DNA of 14,525 nt from a bacterium (GTDB lineage: Bacteria; ARS69), in assembly GCA_025774865.1 (NCBI GenBank), contig JALGZO010000056.1, positions 1 through 14,525 on the forward strand, in the 5' to 3' direction. Below are positions 7,190-13,520 of this stretch, one piece after another. Each line of letters starts with the position of its first letter. The first letter of the stretch is position 1. The notes beneath the pieces are model-generated. The model saw only the letters and a program-made list of their open reading frames with translations. It did no database searches and was not told the DNA's origin. The position numbers were made by a program, and so were the translations under genes.

Positions 7190-8674
7190 ATGGCTGAGGT
7201 TGCAAGTGCGAGCATGACGAAGATGTACGTCAAGGGGCAGTGGGTCGAGGCGCAGAGCGGTGAGACTCAAGAAGTCCGTAGTCCACACGACGGCTCCGTC
7301 GTCGACACCGTTCCCCGCGGCTCGCGGGACGACGCTCGGGCCGCGATCCGGGCCGCGGAGGACGCGTTCCCCGAGTGGGCCGACACCGCCGCCGACGAGC
7401 GCGCCCGGCTGATCCTCGCGGGGGTCGAGAAGGTCAAGGAGAAGCAGAAGGACCTGGCGAAGGTGCTCTCCGCCGAGCAAGGCAAGCCGGTCTTCGAGGC
7501 CATGGGGGAGATTCACCACTTCCTGCACGGCATGACGTTCTACGCCGGTCTCGCCAGCAAGATCCGGGGAGCGCAAGTACCTCTTCCCCCGGACATGGGC
7601 AAACACAGTTACGGATTGGTTCTCAAGCGGCCGGTCGGCGTATGCGGGGCAATCGTCCCGTGGAACTTCCCGATCACGCTCATGGGTACGAAGATCGGTC
7701 CCGCGCTCATCGCGGGAAACACGGTGATCGTCAAGCCCGCGAGCTCGACACCGCTGACGTCGCTCCAGATCATCGGCCTTCTGAACGAAGCGGGTCTGCC
7801 GGCCGGCGTGCTGAACTGTGTCACCGGGCCGGGTCGCGAGGTCGGTGAGGAGCTTCTGGAGAATCCGGTCGTGCGCCGCATCGCGTTCACCGGCGAGTCG
7901 GGAACGGGACGTCGCGTCATGGAGGTCGCCGGTCCGCAGTTCAAGCGCATCACGTTGGAGCTCGGCGGTTCGGATCCGATGATCGTCATGCCCGACGCAG
8001 ATCTCCGCAAGGCGGTCTCGGGGGCGATGATCGGACGCTTCTGGAACTGCGGGCAGGCGTGTCTCGCGGTGAAGCGTCTCTATCTCCACGAGGAGATCCA
8101 CGATGAATTCCTCGAGGCGCTGCTCAAGAAGGTCGGAAGCTACGAGCTCGGCGATCCCGCCACGCGCCCGGAGAAGCCCTTCGTGCGCATGGGTCCGCTG
8201 CACACGGCCGAGCAGCGCGAAGAGATCGAGAGCCAGCTCGCCGACGCCACGAGCAAGGGCGCCGAGGTTCTCATCGGCGGAAGCCGTCCGGACGATCCGG
8301 CGCTGGGGAGCGGTCATTACTTCCACCCCGCCGTCGTCGCGAATGTGTCGCATCACTCGCGTCTCGTTCAGGAAGAGGTCTTCGGTCCGGTGCTCCCCGT
8401 CTTCAAGGTGAAGGACCTCGACGAGGCGATCGTGCTCGCGAACGACAACCAGTACGGGCTCGGCAGCTCGATCTGGACGCAGAACCTTACCTGGTCGAAC
8501 CAAGCGATTCGCGAGATCCAAGCCGGCGTCACGTGGGTCAACCAGATTCATTACGGGTACGACGAGCTGCCGTTCGGCGGCGTCAAGGCGTCGGGAATCG
8601 GACACGAGCACGGACCCGAGGCCGTGGACTACTACCAGGAGACCAAGGGCGCCGTCATCGGCGGCCTCGCCTGA
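7190..8674 (+). CDS. NAD(P)-dependent aldehyde dehydrogenase 1
   Basis: 494 residues, full length for the ALDH superfamily. Catalytic residues are in place: N159 in the PWNF motif, K182 in VKPAS, general base E257 in LELGGSD and nucleophile C291 in CGQACLA. The 34-residue gap from Glu to Cys is normal. The reaction is aldehyde to carboxylate with NAD(P). ATG 7190 has AGGAG at 7177-7181, 8 bases upstream; Met9 at 7214 has only a weak GAGG too far away. It is the first gene of the operon, 25 bases before the crotonase gene. There is no MaoC-type hydratase domain, so it is not PaaZ. It could oxidise a semialdehyde formed after ring opening, or an aldehyde that feeds the pathway. It resembles the second ALDH at the far end of the operon. 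Confidence 0.92.
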   Translation: MAEVASASMTKMYVKGQWVEAQSGETQEVRSPHDGSVVDTVPRGSRDDARAAIRAAEDAFPEWADTAADERARLILAGVEKVKEKQKDLAKVLSAEQGKPVFEAMGEIHHFLHGMTFYAGLASKIRGAQVPLPPDMGKHSYGLVLKRPVGVCGAIVPWNFPITLMGTKIGPALIAGNTVIVKPASSTPLTSLQIIGLLNEAGLPAGVLNCVTGPGREVGEELLENPVVRRIAFTGESGTGRRVMEVAGPQFKRITLELGGSDPMIVMPDADLRKAVSGAMIGRFWNCGQACLAVKRLYLHEEIHDEFLEALLKKVGSYELGDPATRPEKPFVRMGPLHTAEQREEIESQLADATSKGAEVLIGGSRPDDPALGSGHYFHPAVVANVSHHSRLVQEEVFGPVLPVFKVKDLDEAIVLANDNQYGLGSSIWTQNLTWSNQAIREIQAGVTWVNQIHYGYDELPFGGVKASGIGHEHGPEAVDYYQETKGAVIGGLA

Positions 8675-8699: not shown

Positions 8700-9482
8700 A
8701 TGTCGGACCCACGTGTGACGGCATCGTTCGACGGCGCCGTCGGAATCATCACCCTCAACCACCCGAAGGCGAACAGCTACGATCTCTCGTTCATGGAGGA
8801 CCTGGACGCGGCCATCGACGCGATGATCCAGAACGAGTCGGTCCGGGTGGTCGTCATGAGGTCGGGCCTGGAGAAGTTCTTTTCCGCCGGTGCGGACATC
8901 AAGGCGTTCCAGGCGAACAGCACCGAAGGCAACATGAAGATGATCCGTTTCGCGCACAACGCGCTGCGCAAGATGGCGAACTCCCCCAAGGTGTTCGTCG
9001 CGGCGATCGGTGGATTCGCGCTCGGCGGCGGACTCGAGATGGCCCTCGCGTGTGACCTCCGCTTCGCTGGAGACGGCGACTACAAGGTCGGGCTGCCGGA
9101 AGTGACGCTGGGGCTCCTACCCGGCAACGGAGGGACTCAGCGGCTCCCCCGCCTCATCGGTTGCAACGCCGCCCTCGCCCTGATGATCACGGGAGAGATG
9201 ATCGGCCCCAAGCGGGCCCACGAGCTCGGCCTCGTCGATCGCCTTTGTCCGCAGGACTCGTACCTCGACGACACGCTGGCGTACGCGCGGAAGTTGGCAT
9301 CCGGAGCCACGCTGGCCATAGGTCGAATCAAACAGGCCGTGTACGAAGGAATGGAAGTCTCTATGGACGAGGCACTGGCGTTGGAGCGTGATCTGATGGC
9401 GCCGCTCTTCGACACCGAAGACGCCAAGGAAGGCATCGCGGCGTTCGCCGAGAAACGCCAGCCGACGTACACGGGACGGTAG
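8700..9482 (+). CDS. Enoyl-CoA hydratase (crotonase family)
   Basis: 260 residues, standard crotonase length. The oxyanion-hole segment is FFSAGADIKAF (60-70). Both catalytic glutamates of true hydratases are present: E113 in GGGLEMALACD and E133 in LPEVTLGLLPGNGGTQRL, 20 residues apart as in rat mitochondrial hydratase. This supports water addition to a 2-enoyl-CoA, a PaaF-like role in the beta-oxidation part of a Paa-type pathway. The C-terminal EGIAAFAEKRQPTY is also typical. ATG 8700 is preceded by AAGGAG at 8685-8690, 9 bases away. It lies 15 bases before paaA in the same operon. Confidence 0.92.
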   Translation: MSDPRVTASFDGAVGIITLNHPKANSYDLSFMEDLDAAIDAMIQNESVRVVVMRSGLEKFFSAGADIKAFQANSTEGNMKMIRFAHNALRKMANSPKVFVAAIGGFALGGGLEMALACDLRFAGDGDYKVGLPEVTLGLLPGNGGTQRLPRLIGCNAALALMITGEMIGPKRAHELGLVDRLCPQDSYLDDTLAYARKLASGATLAIGRIKQAVYEGMEVSMDEALALERDLMAPLFDTEDAKEGIAAFAEKRQPTYTGR

Positions 9483-9497
9483 CCGAGGAGGGGGACG

Positions 9498-10466
9498 ATG
9501 GCGCTGATCACGGAAGAAGAGGTCGTCGGGCGGCTCGGCGCGGGCAGAATGGTCGAGTCGATCGACCACATGTCGGAGAAGTACCTGAAGGGAATCCAGC
9601 GGATCCTGACGGTGTCCGCCGACACGGAGCTCGTCTCGGCGCCCGCCTACAACTTCGCCGCGAAGGACGCCCCGACCGTCAACGCTTACATTTCTGCCAT
9701 GGGGATCATTCAGGACGAACTGGGACACGCGCACATCGCGTATCGCCTCATGGAGGATCTCGGCTTCGACAAAGAGCAGCTGATCTTCGAGCGCGATCCG
9801 AACAGCTTCAAGTACCCTTACGCGTTCGACGTGCCGCTCGAGACCTGGGTCGAACTGGCGGTGGCCAACGCGCTCTACGATCGCGCGGGCTTCGTTCTTC
9901 TGTCCGACGTGTTTCAACACACCACGTTCGCTCCGTGGAAGCGCGCTCTCGTGAAGGTCGACAAGGAGGAGAACTTCCACCTCCGCCACGGCGAGACCTG
10001 GATGAAGAAGATCAACCAGTCCGCCGAGGGACACGACAAGCTGCAGCGCGCCGTGGACTGGATGCTGCCGCTCACGCTCGAATGGTTCGGGCTCCCCGAC
10101 AGCATGAAGACGCAGAAGGTGCAGCTCGAGTACGGGTTCAAGGGCCAGAGCAACGACCAGCTCCGCCAGACCTGGATGTCGACGGCGATTCCGTTTCTCG
10201 AATCGCTGAACATCGGCGTACCGGTCCACCGGGACGAGCGGACGCAAGCGTACGTGATCGATTACCCGTTCCCGTCGGAGTTCGATCCGGAAGAAAAGCG
10301 GTGGCTGTTCGATGAGGGGCCGATCGAATGGCTCGACGACGATTCCGGGCGACCCAGCGTCATGAAACGATGGCGCGGGCGCGGCCCGATGAACGACGAG
10401 TTCGTCGAGATCCTGCAGCGAGGTCACCGCCAGGTCGTCGACTTGCTCGTCCGCGAGAAGCAATGA
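9498..10466 (+). CDS. paaA: Phenylacetyl-CoA epoxidase-like catalytic subunit PaaA
   Basis: 322 residues (E. coli PaaA is about 309). It is the catalytic di-iron subunit of the CoA-ester ring epoxidase, which uses O2 and electrons from a reductase. Likely iron ligands are visible: E44, E74 and H77 in QDELGH, D128 in YDRAG, and E158 and H161 in KEENFH. The flanks follow E. coli PaaA closely: an APT motif before the second helix, KYPYAFDVP against KYSSIFNYP, a FAPWKRALVK segment against YGPYARAMVK, and LRQTW-IPFLESLNIGVP against LRQRF-VPQVEMLGMTVP. It has a strong SD (AGGAGG 9486-9491, 6 bases before ATG). The stop overlaps the next start (ATGA). The substrate is assumed from family and is not proven; the rest of the complex here is unusual. 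Confidence 0.9.
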   Translation: MALITEEEVVGRLGAGRMVESIDHMSEKYLKGIQRILTVSADTELVSAPAYNFAAKDAPTVNAYISAMGIIQDELGHAHIAYRLMEDLGFDKEQLIFERDPNSFKYPYAFDVPLETWVELAVANALYDRAGFVLLSDVFQHTTFAPWKRALVKVDKEENFHLRHGETWMKKINQSAEGHDKLQRAVDWMLPLTLEWFGLPDSMKTQKVQLEYGFKGQSNDQLRQTWMSTAIPFLESLNIGVPVHRDERTQAYVIDYPFPSEFDPEEKRWLFDEGPIEWLDDDSGRPSVMKRWRGRGPMNDEFVEILQRGHRQVVDLLVREKQ

Positions 10467-10777
10467 CCGTGGAGGAGCGCCTGCTCGAAGCGTTGCACGA
10501 CGTCGAAGACGCGGAACTGCCCTTGGACGTCGTCGACCTGGGTCTCATCTACGGGATTCGGTATCGTGAGGGCGACGGTCACGTGGACGTCGACATGACA
10601 TTCACCGCGATGGGCTGCCCCGCCATGGATTACATGGTCCACGACGTGCGGGAGCGGCTCCTTCGAGAGGCCGAGGTCGCGAGCGTCCAGGTCACGGTCG
10701 TATGGGACCCGCCGTGGGATCAGACTCGGCTCACCTCGAGGGGCTCGGCGGCGCTCGCAACGTGGGGAATCGTGTGA
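10463..10777 (+). CDS. paaD: PaaD N-terminal half: stand-alone DUF59/MIP18 protein
   Basis: 104 residues. It matches the first two thirds of PaaD: VEDAELPLDVVDLGLIYGI (the DPExP-VVDLG signature, with D16 and E18), MTFTAMGCPAMDYM with the conserved Cys52 of DUF59/SufT-type proteins, then VVWDPPWDQTRLT and a closing GSAALATWGIV. In E. coli PaaD (about 165 residues) this domain continues into a zinc ribbon; here a TGA stops it right after the WGIV point. The zinc-ribbon part is a separate gene at 11987. PaaD is thought to help iron or Fe-S assembly for the epoxidase or its reductase. ATGA overlap with paaA upstream and a 1-base overlap (TGATG) with the next gene imply coupled translation. Confidence 0.88.
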   Translation: MTVEERLLEALHDVEDAELPLDVVDLGLIYGIRYREGDGHVDVDMTFTAMGCPAMDYMVHDVRERLLREAEVASVQVTVVWDPPWDQTRLTSRGSAALATWGIV

Positions 10778-10998
10778 TGACCATTCGGGATCGAAACGAA
10801 GTGAAACCGAGCGGCACCGTTTACGACGTGTTCGCACGCACGCGTGACGAAGACCGCGTGCATCAGGTCGGCGACGTCATCGCGCCGACGTCCGGCCTCG
10901 CGCGCGCGTACGCGTACCAGATGTACCAGGAGAGCCCTTGGGTCGAGATGGTCGTGGCTCCACGGGCGGCCATCGTCACCGTCGTCGATAAGACCTAG
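10777..10998 (+). CDS. paaB: PaaB-like small subunit, copy 1
   Basis: 73 residues from ATG 10777, which shares one base with the paaD TGA; GTG 10774 in frame is an alternative. GGGGA at 10764-10768 is 8 bases upstream. The pattern YDVFART-x-HQVGDVIAP, an Ala/Tyr-rich helix (ARAYAYQMY), then PWVEMVVAPRAAIVTV parallels PaaB (YEVFVR-x-HVGS-x-A, helix, W-V-V-x-I). E. coli PaaB is about 95 residues. PaaB bridges two PaaA-PaaC dimers, so this is likely a structural subunit of the oxygenase. Too short for an enzyme. The PaaB call rests on fold pattern and gene position and is less sure than those of PaaA and PaaD. Confidence 0.72.
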   Translation: MTIRDRNEVKPSGTVYDVFARTRDEDRVHQVGDVIAPTSGLARAYAYQMYQESPWVEMVVAPRAAIVTVVDKT

Positions 10999-11008
10999 GC
11001 GGATCATC

Positions 11009-11197
11009 ATGAACGCAACGTTCGTAGTGTTCGCGAGGCGGAAGTCCCAGGAGCCGCTGACGAAAATCGGAACCGTCACGGTGAAGCAGGGGGCGTCCGT
11101 CGAGGAGTCGGTGAGCAAAGAGCACGGCGAGGACTGGATCGAGCTCGTGGCCATCCCCGAAACGGCGATGGAGTGGGCGATCGGAGGCGACGAATGA
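11009..11197 (+). CDS. PaaB-like small subunit, copy 2
   Basis: 62 residues from ATG 11009, 10 bases after copy 1, with a weak SD-like AGGCGGA (10997-11003). It has the same skeleton as copy 1: FVVFARRK against YDVFART, then IGTVTV against VGDVIA, a short helix, and DWIELVAIPETAM against PWVEMVVAPRAAI. The helix and the tail are shorter. The two are clearly different sequences, so this is an old duplication. It may form an asymmetric bridge with copy 1 in the PaaA/PaaC complex. The stop overlaps the next start by ATGA. An unrelated small regulatory component cannot be excluded. Confidence 0.62.
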   Translation: MNATFVVFARRKSQEPLTKIGTVTVKQGASVEESVSKEHGEDWIELVAIPETAMEWAIGGDE

Positions 11198-11982
11198 CTT
11201 TCATGAAGGACCGCGAGGCCGACCTCCGAGATGCTCCAGTCGCCGTCGAGCCGATCGACGTGGACGAGTTCCCGCCCGAGGCGCGGGAGTCGATCCTCGG
11301 AATCCTCGTCATGCTCGGTGACAACAAGTATCAGCTCGGGCGTCGCTACGGCGAGTGGGCCACGTCCGGTCCCACGCTCGAGGCCTCGGTGGCCGCTGCG
11401 TCCATGACCTCGGACGAGATGGGACACGCACGAAGCCTCTATCCCCTGCTCCGGAAATTCCCCGGAGCGCCGCCGGAGCTCAAGAAGGAAGACGATCGCA
11501 CCGCGTTCCATAACGTGTCGTTCCTCGACACGCCGTTCCTTCAGTGGACCGATCTCATCGCGACCGCGGCGCTCTTCGACCGAGCGCTGTCCGTGCTCGT
11601 CGAGGGGCTCCGCGATTCGTCCTACGGTCCTTTCCGGCACCGCGCCGCGAAGATCCTGCAGGAGGAGCGCTACCACGAGCTCTACGCGAACGGCTGGGTC
11701 GAGACGCTGGCGCAGGAGGAAGGAACTCGAATCGCGCTGAAGGAGAGCATGAACCGCATCTGGACCGAGACGCTGACCTGGTTCGGCCCCGACGATGACC
11801 GCGTTCTCGGAATCGCAGCGGAGCAGCGTATCGTCGACGTGACCGGGCCCGAGCTCCGGGAGCGATTCGTGTCGGGCGTGCAGCGCGTCGTCGAGTCGAT
11901 CCCCGGGATGGGCTTCCCGGCGAGCGCTCCGCTTCCCTGGGATCGGTGGGTCGCGGCGGACCGCCGACTGCGACCGGAGTGA
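11194..11982 (+). CDS. paaC: PaaC-like di-iron-fold subunit with retained metal ligands
   Basis: 262 residues (E. coli PaaC is about 248). ATG 11194 overlaps the upstream TGA, with GGAGG at 11183-11187, 6 bases before it. The N-terminal segment VMLGDNKYQLGRRYGEW is the PaaC signature (LGDN-x-LGQRLxEW). In E. coli PaaC the metal sites have decayed (LLGQ, EARYH). Here E75 and H78 in DEMGHAR, D129 in FDRAL, and E158 and H161 in EERYH are all present, at nearly the same positions as in the paaA product. The first-helix ligand Glu is replaced by the D43-N44 of GDN. The tail (WFGPDDDR, then LRERF and IPGMGFP) is closer to PaaA, and the C-terminal HTE motif of PaaC is absent. It may be structural, or a second metal-binding subunit. 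Confidence 0.82.
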   Translation: MTFMKDREADLRDAPVAVEPIDVDEFPPEARESILGILVMLGDNKYQLGRRYGEWATSGPTLEASVAAASMTSDEMGHARSLYPLLRKFPGAPPELKKEDDRTAFHNVSFLDTPFLQWTDLIATAALFDRALSVLVEGLRDSSYGPFRHRAAKILQEERYHELYANGWVETLAQEEGTRIALKESMNRIWTETLTWFGPDDDRVLGIAAEQRIVDVTGPELRERFVSGVQRVVESIPGMGFPASAPLPWDRWVAADRRLRPE

Positions 11983-11986
11983 AGAG

Positions 11987-12205
11987 ATGAGCACCGGCTC
12001 CGTGCGTCGGCGGTGGACGGCCGAGGGCGGGGCGGCGCCGCGCTGCCCTTGGTGCGGGTCGGAGCAGACGGAGCGGAGCGCCGTCTTCGGACCCTTCCAC
12101 ATGTCGGAGAGCTACTCGTGCCTCGACTGCCACAGCCCTTTTTCACGAATCAAGTGGAGACGGGAGCCTCCGCCGACGGGAACCGGGGCCGGGCACCCGG
12201 AATGA
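11987..12205 (+). CDS. PaaD C-terminal half: stand-alone zinc-ribbon protein
   Basis: 72 residues. C20, C23, C45 and C48 form a CxxC-x21-CxxC zinc ribbon: CPWCGSEQTE, VFGPF, then YSCLDCHSPFSRIKW. This is the layout of the PaaD C-terminal domain (CPxCGSxxTE, FG, YxCxxCxEPFxxFK). PaaD's usual extra Cys after FGST is missing here (FGPFHMSES). The DUF59 part of PaaD is a separate gene at 10463, with three genes between. ATG 11987 lies 4 bases after the paaC stop, with GGAG at 11976-11979, and its TGA overlaps the next ATG. It most likely acts in trans with the DUF59 protein in maturing the oxygenase. Small generic zinc ribbons exist elsewhere, but position and motif order make the PaaD origin likely. 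Confidence 0.78.
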   Translation: MSTGSVRRRWTAEGGAAPRCPWCGSEQTERSAVFGPFHMSESYSCLDCHSPFSRIKWRREPPPTGTGAGHPE

Positions 12206-12984
12206 CGGAAAGCCCCCTCCTCGTCGAGGTTCGCAACGCGGTTGCGACCGTCACCCTCAACCGCCCGCGAGAGCTCAACGCGATCGACAACGATATGCGT
12301 GCCGCGTTCCGCGAACTGGCGGACCGACTCCCGTTCGACTCGGAGATCCGGGTCGTGGTGTTCACCGGAGCCGGGCGCGCGTTCTCAGCGGGCGGCAACG
12401 TGAAACAGTTCGAACGGGAGTGGAACCCGGCCGAGTTCCGGGCGCGCAGTCACAAGCTCAGCCACTTCTTCGACGAGCTCGAGACGCTCGAGAAACCCGT
12501 CATCGCCGCCCTCAACGGCGTCGCCACCGGGGCCGGTCTTCAGCTCGCGCTGGCCGCCGACCTGCGCTTCGCGGCCGAGGGTGCGGAGCTCGGATTCCGT
12601 GAGCATCATCTGGGGCTCGTGCCGGGGCATGGCGGGGCTACTCGAATCGTGAAGCTCATCGGGCTGAGCCGCGCGAAGGAGCTCTACTTCGGCGGCGAGC
12701 TCGTGGACGCGGAGGAGGCGCGGCGAATCGGACTCGTGCACCGCGTGATCCCCGCGGACGCGCTGCTCGAGCAAGTTCAGGAAACAGCGGAGAAGCTGGC
12801 GAAGCGCGCACCGCTGGCCCTCGGGCTCACCAAGCGCCTCCTGAACCACGCGGCGCACGCCGACGTGCGGTCGGGAATCGAGATGGAGTCGCTTGCGCAG
12901 GTCGTGGCGCTCGAGACCGCGGACCACCAGGAAGGCGTCGCGGCTTTCCGGGAGAAGCGCCGCCCGCGCTTCCGCGGGGAGTGA
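12202..12984 (+). CDS. Crotonase-family enoyl-CoA isomerase-like protein (PaaG-like role)
   Basis: 260 residues. It has the crotonase oxyanion motif AFSAGGNVKQF (60-70) and PGHGGATR. The first hydratase glutamate is replaced by Gln114 (GAGLQLALAAD), while the second is kept (E134 in FREHHLGLVPG). Loss of the first Glu with retention of the second is the pattern of enoyl-CoA isomerases rather than hydratases, so a double-bond or epoxide/oxepin isomerisation, as done by PaaG, is a fair inference. E. coli PaaG itself uses an Asp at another position, so this is not a simple orthologue. ATG 12202 overlaps the zinc-ribbon stop; there is no good SD, so translation is probably coupled. It sits 2 bases before the PaaY-like gene. 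Confidence 0.82.
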   Translation: MTESPLLVEVRNAVATVTLNRPRELNAIDNDMRAAFRELADRLPFDSEIRVVVFTGAGRAFSAGGNVKQFEREWNPAEFRARSHKLSHFFDELETLEKPVIAALNGVATGAGLQLALAADLRFAAEGAELGFREHHLGLVPGHGGATRIVKLIGLSRAKELYFGGELVDAEEARRIGLVHRVIPADALLEQVQETAEKLAKRAPLALGLTKRLLNHAAHADVRSGIEMESLAQVVALETADHQEGVAAFREKRRPRFRGE

Positions 12985-12986
12985 CG

Positions 12987-13520
12987 ATGGCCCGGATCAT
13001 CACGGTGCGGGGTTGGACACCGCAGATCCACCCGACGGCCTTCGTCGCCCCGAACGCCACCCTGATCGGCAACGTCGTCGTCGAGGCGCACGCGAACGTC
13101 TGGTTCGGCGTGGTCCTGCGAGCGGACCAGAACCTCATTCAGATCGGAGAGAAGGCGAGCGTCCAGGACAACGCGGTGATGCACTGCAACGAGGAGAACG
13201 CAACCGTCATCGGGAGAAGCGCGACGATCGGCCACTGTGCCGTCCTCGAGGGTTGCGAGATCCAGGATTTTGCGCTGATCGGCATGAACGCGAGCGTGCT
13301 GGACGGGGCCACCGTCGAATCGGGAGCGCTGGTCGCGGCCGGCAGCGTCGTGAAGGAGCGAGACACGATTCCGGAGTGGACCCTCGCGGGAGGCGTCCCG
13401 GCCGTGGCGAAGAAGCAGCTCGCGGGGACCGCGATCGACCACGTCAAGGGAGCGGCCGAGCACTACCAGACACTCATGGCCCTCTACGAACATCTCGGCG
13501 ACCCCGTACCCAGAGAGTAG
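12987..13520 (+). CDS. paaY: PaaY-like gamma-carbonic-anhydrase-family hexapeptide protein
   Basis: 177 residues. A left-handed beta-helix of hexapeptide repeats (about residues 13-140: NATLIGNVVVEAHANVW, then IGEKASVQDNAVMHC, and so on) precedes a C-terminal alpha helix (AIDHVKGAAEHYQTLMALY). Gamma-class enzymes bind zinc through three His; here H66 (VMH) and H83 (IGH) are kept, but the third is Glu88 (AVLEGC, usually VLHGC). PaaY is a thioesterase that removes dead-end CoA esters in phenylacetate degradation, which fits this operon. ATG 12987 is preferred because GGGGAG at 12976-12981 is 5 bases away; GTG 12981, overlapping the upstream stop, would add two residues. A carbonic anhydrase or another acyl-CoA role is possible. 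Confidence 0.82.
   Translation: MARIITVRGWTPQIHPTAFVAPNATLIGNVVVEAHANVWFGVVLRADQNLIQIGEKASVQDNAVMHCNEENATVIGRSATIGHCAVLEGCEIQDFALIGMNASVLDGATVESGALVAAGSVVKERDTIPEWTLAGGVPAVAKKQLAGTAIDHVKGAAEHYQTLMALYEHLGDPVPRE

Follow-up and report, generated by a model that had tools for sequence, protein, structure and literature searches.

The window, that is the whole stretch of DNA analysed here, is a complete contig of 14,525 bases (G000:C56) from an assembly of 4.7 Mb in 785 contigs, with a contamination of 8.3% that calls for caution about the host. The phylum of this genome was represented by five genomes in the collection. All on the forward strand (+), the window encodes an aldehyde dehydrogenase that is conserved in the operon (7190..8674), a first enoyl-CoA hydratase/isomerase family protein (ECH1, 8700..9482), a PaaA-like catalytic subunit (9498..10466), the N-terminal part of PaaD as a separate protein with a MIP18/DUF59 domain (10463..10777; PF01883, NF041868) and two small PaaB-like proteins. 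The first of these (10777..10998) has a weak PF06243 match and was compared by profile with canonical PaaB. The second (11009..11197) has no library match of its own above cut-off and its iterated profile reaches PaaB; both iterated profiles grew to include all PaaB. They are followed by a PaaC-like subunit (11194..11982), the zinc-ribbon part of PaaD as another separate protein (11987..12205; PF23451, 43.9 bits), a second enoyl-CoA hydratase/isomerase family protein (ECH2, 12202..12984), a PaaY-like or gamma-carbonic-anhydrase-like hexapeptide protein (12987..13520) and a second aldehyde dehydrogenase truncated where the contig stops (13530..14525). The order A-D-B-B-C-zinc ribbon and the split PaaD distinguish this operon from the canonical PaaC system. 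The division of PaaD into a MIP18-domain protein and a zinc-ribbon protein resembles haloarchaeal PaaD/PaaE. In parallel, two PaaB-like repeats were seen within one ORF in some canonical Chloroflexota operons (L096, L102, L093).

The PaaC-like gene encodes 262 amino acids. Its ATG start is preceded by GGAGG and overlaps the stop codon of the small ORF before it. The protein is a member of the PaaA_PaaC superfamily, with a PF05138 match of 140.7 bits for a gathering cut-off of 28.5. It scores 100.6 bits with the canonical PaaC equivalog TIGR02158, below the curated cut-off of 133.35, and 61.5 bits with the PaaA equivalog TIGR02156, for which the cut-off is 280. The best profile is that of the PaaCs that keep their metal ligands, at 137 bits. 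This profile has the top score for either half of the protein, with 58.7 bits against 14.2 for PaaA in the N half and 64.2 against 52.7 in the C half, and the idea of a PaaC N-half fused to a PaaA C-half was rejected on this ground. A leaning toward PaaA is confined to the final 83 residues (20.3 bits against 5.9 for PaaC). The preliminary description of a PaaC-like N-terminus and a PaaA-like C-terminus thus holds only in comparison with E. coli-type PaaC, whereas both halves are PaaC when ligand-keeping PaaCs are taken as the reference.

An AF2 model built from eight sequences has a mean pLDDT of 87.6 and contains all four metal-site helices. It was compared with known structures by Foldseek/VIA-align, which gave a Z of 23.8 and an rmsd of 2.9 over 238 residues with PaaA (4ii4), a Z of 23.8 and an rmsd of 2.5 over 220 with PaaC (3pvr), and a Z of 24.9 and an rmsd of 2.2 over 218 with Sulfolobus SSO1313 (4mud), in which all six ligands are present according to sequence alignment. 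The protein shares its fold with canonical E. coli PaaC, the subunit of 1,2-phenylacetyl-CoA epoxidase, as well as its tree lineage and the presence of a PaaA neighbour in the operon.

The metal positions of E. coli PaaA are E42, E72, H75, D126, E155 and H158 (PMC4498308). They align with K45, E75, H78, D129, E158 and H161 of the PaaC-like protein, with spacings of 30-3-51-29-3 that are exactly those of E. coli PaaA, and with E44, E74, H77, D128, E158 and H161 in the PaaA of the window. In the model, K45, E75/H78, D129 and E158/H161 are predicted to lie on the bundle helices 28-53, 62-88, 118-138 and 145-172. The correspondence of DEMGHAR, EERYH and D129 with the PaaA ligands, proposed in the preliminary description, is therefore correct for five positions, but the sixth was overlooked: a lysine stands in place of the helix-1 glutamate. 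The pattern of four carboxylates and two histidines found in bacterial multicomponent di-iron proteins is accordingly present at five of six positions. The corresponding residues of E. coli PaaC are C-L-Q-D-A-H, and the loss of ligands claimed for it was borne out, with L, Q, D, A and H at the five aligned positions.

The conservation of the site was assessed in a window group of 37 non-redundant relatives, with a mean pairwise identity of 37%, in which 243 columns were ranked by entropy. Lys45 (codon 11326..11328, +), equivalent to E. coli PaaA helix-1 E42 and to E44 of the window PaaA, is Lys in 34/37, Glu in two and Arg in one. Glu75 (11416..11418, +; E. coli PaaA E72) is Glu in 32/37 and Asp in 5/37, and His78 (11425..11427, +; H75) is found in 36/37. 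Asp129 (11578..11580, +; D126), Glu158 (11665..11667, +; E155) and His161 (11674..11676, +; H158) are present in 37/37. Most rows of the group are thus K-E-H-D-E-H like the window protein itself, with K-D-H-D-E-H in five, R-E-F-D-E-H in one (L140) and E-E-H-D-E-H in the two members with Glu at position 45, L120 (G185:C5) and L147 (G491:C80). L120 comes from a genome of the Thermus family and groups with two Lys-bearing relatives. The six columns rank 6, 7, 8, 11, 21 and 22 of 243 in the window group and 15, 27, 83, 121, 144 and 165 in the clade of PaaCs that have lost the ligands; judged by these ranks, something at the site is under strong selection. His161 is not diagnostic of metal, since it is also invariant (29/29) in that ligand-lost clade. 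In the same way, Asp43 is unlikely to act as a shifted sixth ligand, being equally invariant in PaaCs without a metal site.

PaaA and PaaC homologues were gathered from the genome collection, from plasmids, from whole genomes of Deinococcota, Chloroflexota and Acidobacteria and from a broad sample, and were reduced to 180 aligned rows in which the six positions were read. On the PaaC side, four site states were observed. Canonical PaaCs that keep the ligands (27 rows, mostly E-E-H-D-E-H) were found in Thermus, Deinococcus, haloarchaea, some Chloroflexota and one genome of the Acidobacteria phylum; they share the metal-site residues of the window protein but have a helix-1 Glu in place of its Lys. 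Canonical PaaCs that have lost them (29 rows, mostly C/R/A-L-Q-x-x-H) include those of E. coli, Streptomyces, Saprospira, Paracoccus, many Chloroflexota and most Acidobacteria rows. The window group makes up the third state, and Lys is also found in four haloarchaeal or Agrobacterium rows. Ligand-bearing PaaC is thus not unusual and, to judge by these alignments, is widespread. Six Chloroflexota PaaC rows (L096, L097, L098, L100, L102, L148) read E-E-H-E-E-H, with Glu for the Asp126 ligand. Two PaaC-type genes matched in two pieces (G169:C1:609897-610603 and G574:C1:4186985-4187763), through frameshift, decay or sequencing error.

Trees were built with FastTree from the 180 rows and with IQ-TREE (LG+C20+F+G4) from 79 rows, with the ligand columns excluded in both. 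The tree is unrooted; a root outside PaaA and PaaC was sought and no secure outgroup was found, and three PaaA-like rows (L009, L012, L017) fell on the PaaA side. PaaA-type and PaaC-type proteins separate in both analyses. In IQ-TREE, a branch with support of 100/99 parts 56 PaaC-type rows, the window protein among them, from 23 others. Canonical PaaC forms one clade (99/99), the window group forms its own clade outside it (100/96) and the ligand-lost PaaCs form a single derived clade (100/100). Whether the window group and the haloarchaeal/Agrobacterium rows are monophyletic was examined by an AU test, which gave p = 0.41 and thus left both arrangements compatible with the data. The preliminary description had named as contrary evidence a position inside ordinary PaaC with such ligands common there, of which only the latter half was found: such ligands are frequent across the PaaC lineage, and the protein lies outside ordinary PaaC. 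The view of PaaC as structural rests on E. coli-type proteins, a derived clade in which the ligands were lost once. Elsewhere among PaaCs, five or six are retained, so the idea that PaaC is only structural can be tested in Thermus, Deinococcus and haloarchaea too.

All six ligands occur in PaaA and in the early branches of canonical PaaC, and the site is in this sense an old one that was kept. On this unrooted tree, Lys45 would most simply be a derived state, because PaaA and the early canonical PaaC branches have Glu at the first position. It had also been suggested that the protein preserves the state before PaaA and PaaC specialised, as a relic older than their duplication. The ligands common to PaaA and the window protein and the PaaA-leaning last 83 residues are what speaks for such a relic. 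Nevertheless, the 100/99 branch places all 56 PaaC-type rows on one side, the same operon encodes a separate and distinct PaaA for it to pair with, and Lys is most simply derived; the idea is largely refuted and can be regarded as hardly tenable.

The partner PaaA of the window has 117 bits with TIGR02156, below the cut-off of 280. All six ligands are kept in 29/30 window-type PaaAs. Across the same operons, identity to the window protein is 62-70% for PaaA and 39-47% for the PaaC-like subunit, and this better conservation of PaaA is expected if it holds the active site. In canonical PaaA, a lysine bridge was described close to the irons, with Lys68 in contact with Glu49, Glu72 and Asp126 (PMC4498308). 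Both K68 and E49 occur in 42/42 canonical PaaAs and in 0/30 window-type PaaAs, which mostly have Ile and Tyr there; the PaaC-like protein of the window has Met71 and Tyr52 and thus does not carry the PaaA bridge either. In the window group, the bridge lysine is therefore missing from PaaA and a lysine is present in the PaaC site. Both lysines would touch metal-site carboxylates of this fold, but the bridge sits in PaaA and on another helix than the Lys of the PaaC-like protein.

By analogy with methane monooxygenase, we take E42, the bridging E72 and H75 to serve iron 1, and D126, E155 and H158 to serve iron 2. Lys45 would then deprive iron 1 of its sole terminal carboxylate, with the iron-2 set left whole. 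Its ammonium group would most likely occupy the place of iron 1 and pair with Glu75/Glu158, and the rest of the site, Glu75-Asp129-Glu158-His161, would hold one metal ion or none. Such a site may be structural or may tune PaaA, rather than act as a second oxygen-activating di-iron centre, and PaaA would carry the working di-iron site as the sole oxygen-activating subunit. On the whole, it appears reasonably probable that the protein serves as C subunit in a lineage of Paa-type CoA-thioester oxygenases that is non-canonical and deeply split, and that its Lys-substituted site is mono-metal or metal-free, with PaaA doing the chemistry. In the purified PaaABCE complex, iron was found in PaaA and the reductase only and PaaC was termed structural (PMC4498308), which was counted in favour of a mono-metal or metal-free site. 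Moreover, class Ie ribonucleotide reductase (R2e), in which a Lys occupies the former metal site, shows that the ferritin-like fold can function without metal (PMC11846895). The two cases share a ferritin-like di-metal site in which a metal-binding Glu became Lys, but three residues are substituted in R2e, which also has a DOPA radical, whereas only one position is changed in the window protein. On the contrary, a purely metal-free site would give no reason to expect the near-invariant His78, an iron-1 ligand, and Lys and Glu at position 45 may be interchangeable, as L120 and L147 suggest, which would fit a ligand role.

These last points bear on the other readings of the site. A complete second di-metal centre, with Lys45 as a neutral amine or carboxylated ligand and two oxygen-activating centres per AC pair, would agree with the strict conservation of five ligands, with Glu at position 45 in two members of the group and with the full set of six in canonical PaaCs of Thermus, Deinococcus, haloarchaea and Chloroflexota. 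It is nevertheless very unlikely. Lysine binds iron poorly, and once carboxylated its side chain exceeds that of Glu by about three atoms. The confinement of iron to PaaA and the reductase in PaaABCE also counts against it, although the PaaC of that complex lacks the ligands (PMC4498308). A full di-iron site is unlikely because the group has a nearly invariant lysine where iron 1 would find its terminal carboxylate; the second metal site of the preliminary description thus finds little in its favour, and in a mono-metal form it is possible. At the other extreme, the conservation could reflect the packing of buried charges only, in a purely structural salt-bridge network with no metal in any member. 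Parts of the site do have non-metal roles, since ligand-lost PaaCs still show full conservation of His161 and Glu157, but the positions of E42, E72, D126 and E155 drift freely in those same proteins (ranks 83-165) and even His78 is kept in the window group, which makes such a network a doubtful explanation. Finally, a second Paa-type lineage could have a functional mono-metal centre containing the Lys, or a di-metal centre completed by it, in the C subunit, where it would contribute to catalysis or electron transfer in place of the bridge missing from PaaA, and the substrate would be an aryl-CoA different from phenylacetyl-CoA; this we hold to be quite unlikely.

The interest of the group lies in a conserved Glu-to-Lys exchange, with rare Lys/Glu variation, at a strongly selected ferritin-like site and in the second Paa-type operon to which it points; the preliminary description had noticed something real and over-read it. 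An open-access literature search, run without key structure papers including the 2011 paper on the E. coli complex, found no description of the Lys site or of the operon. The parts seen of a recent survey of Paa pathways (PMC13186573) likewise do not mention a second Paa-type operon.

The same gene order was found in G003, a genome of the same family as that of the window, in which the PaaC-like gene is apparently split over two contig ends, and MAGs of Acidobacteria, Anaerolineales, UBP7 and KSB1 carry the operon as well. An ordinary PaaC is also encoded by the Acidobacteria and one Anaerolineales genome with the window-type operon, which is therefore additional there and not a replacement. 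A gene of the benzoate-CoA-ligase family, above cut-off, adjoins the operon in L029 (5522-7150); comparable ligases occur in its vicinity in L023, L073 and L165, as does a PaaK-like one in L024. The substrate is likely to be an aryl-CoA thioester, and these neighbours hint at one other than phenylacetyl-CoA. A paaC_2 of the window group is carried by seven Thermus thermophilus plasmids (AP031324 and six others), on one of which the neighbourhood was read. It has Lys at position 45 and a near-identical gene set, but ECH1 and the aldehyde dehydrogenase are on the opposite strand and the zinc-ribbon gene is not annotated. T. thermophilus TF19, which carries the plasmid AP031324 (L070), is thus a cultivable host in which a window-type operon occurs as a second Paa-type operon.
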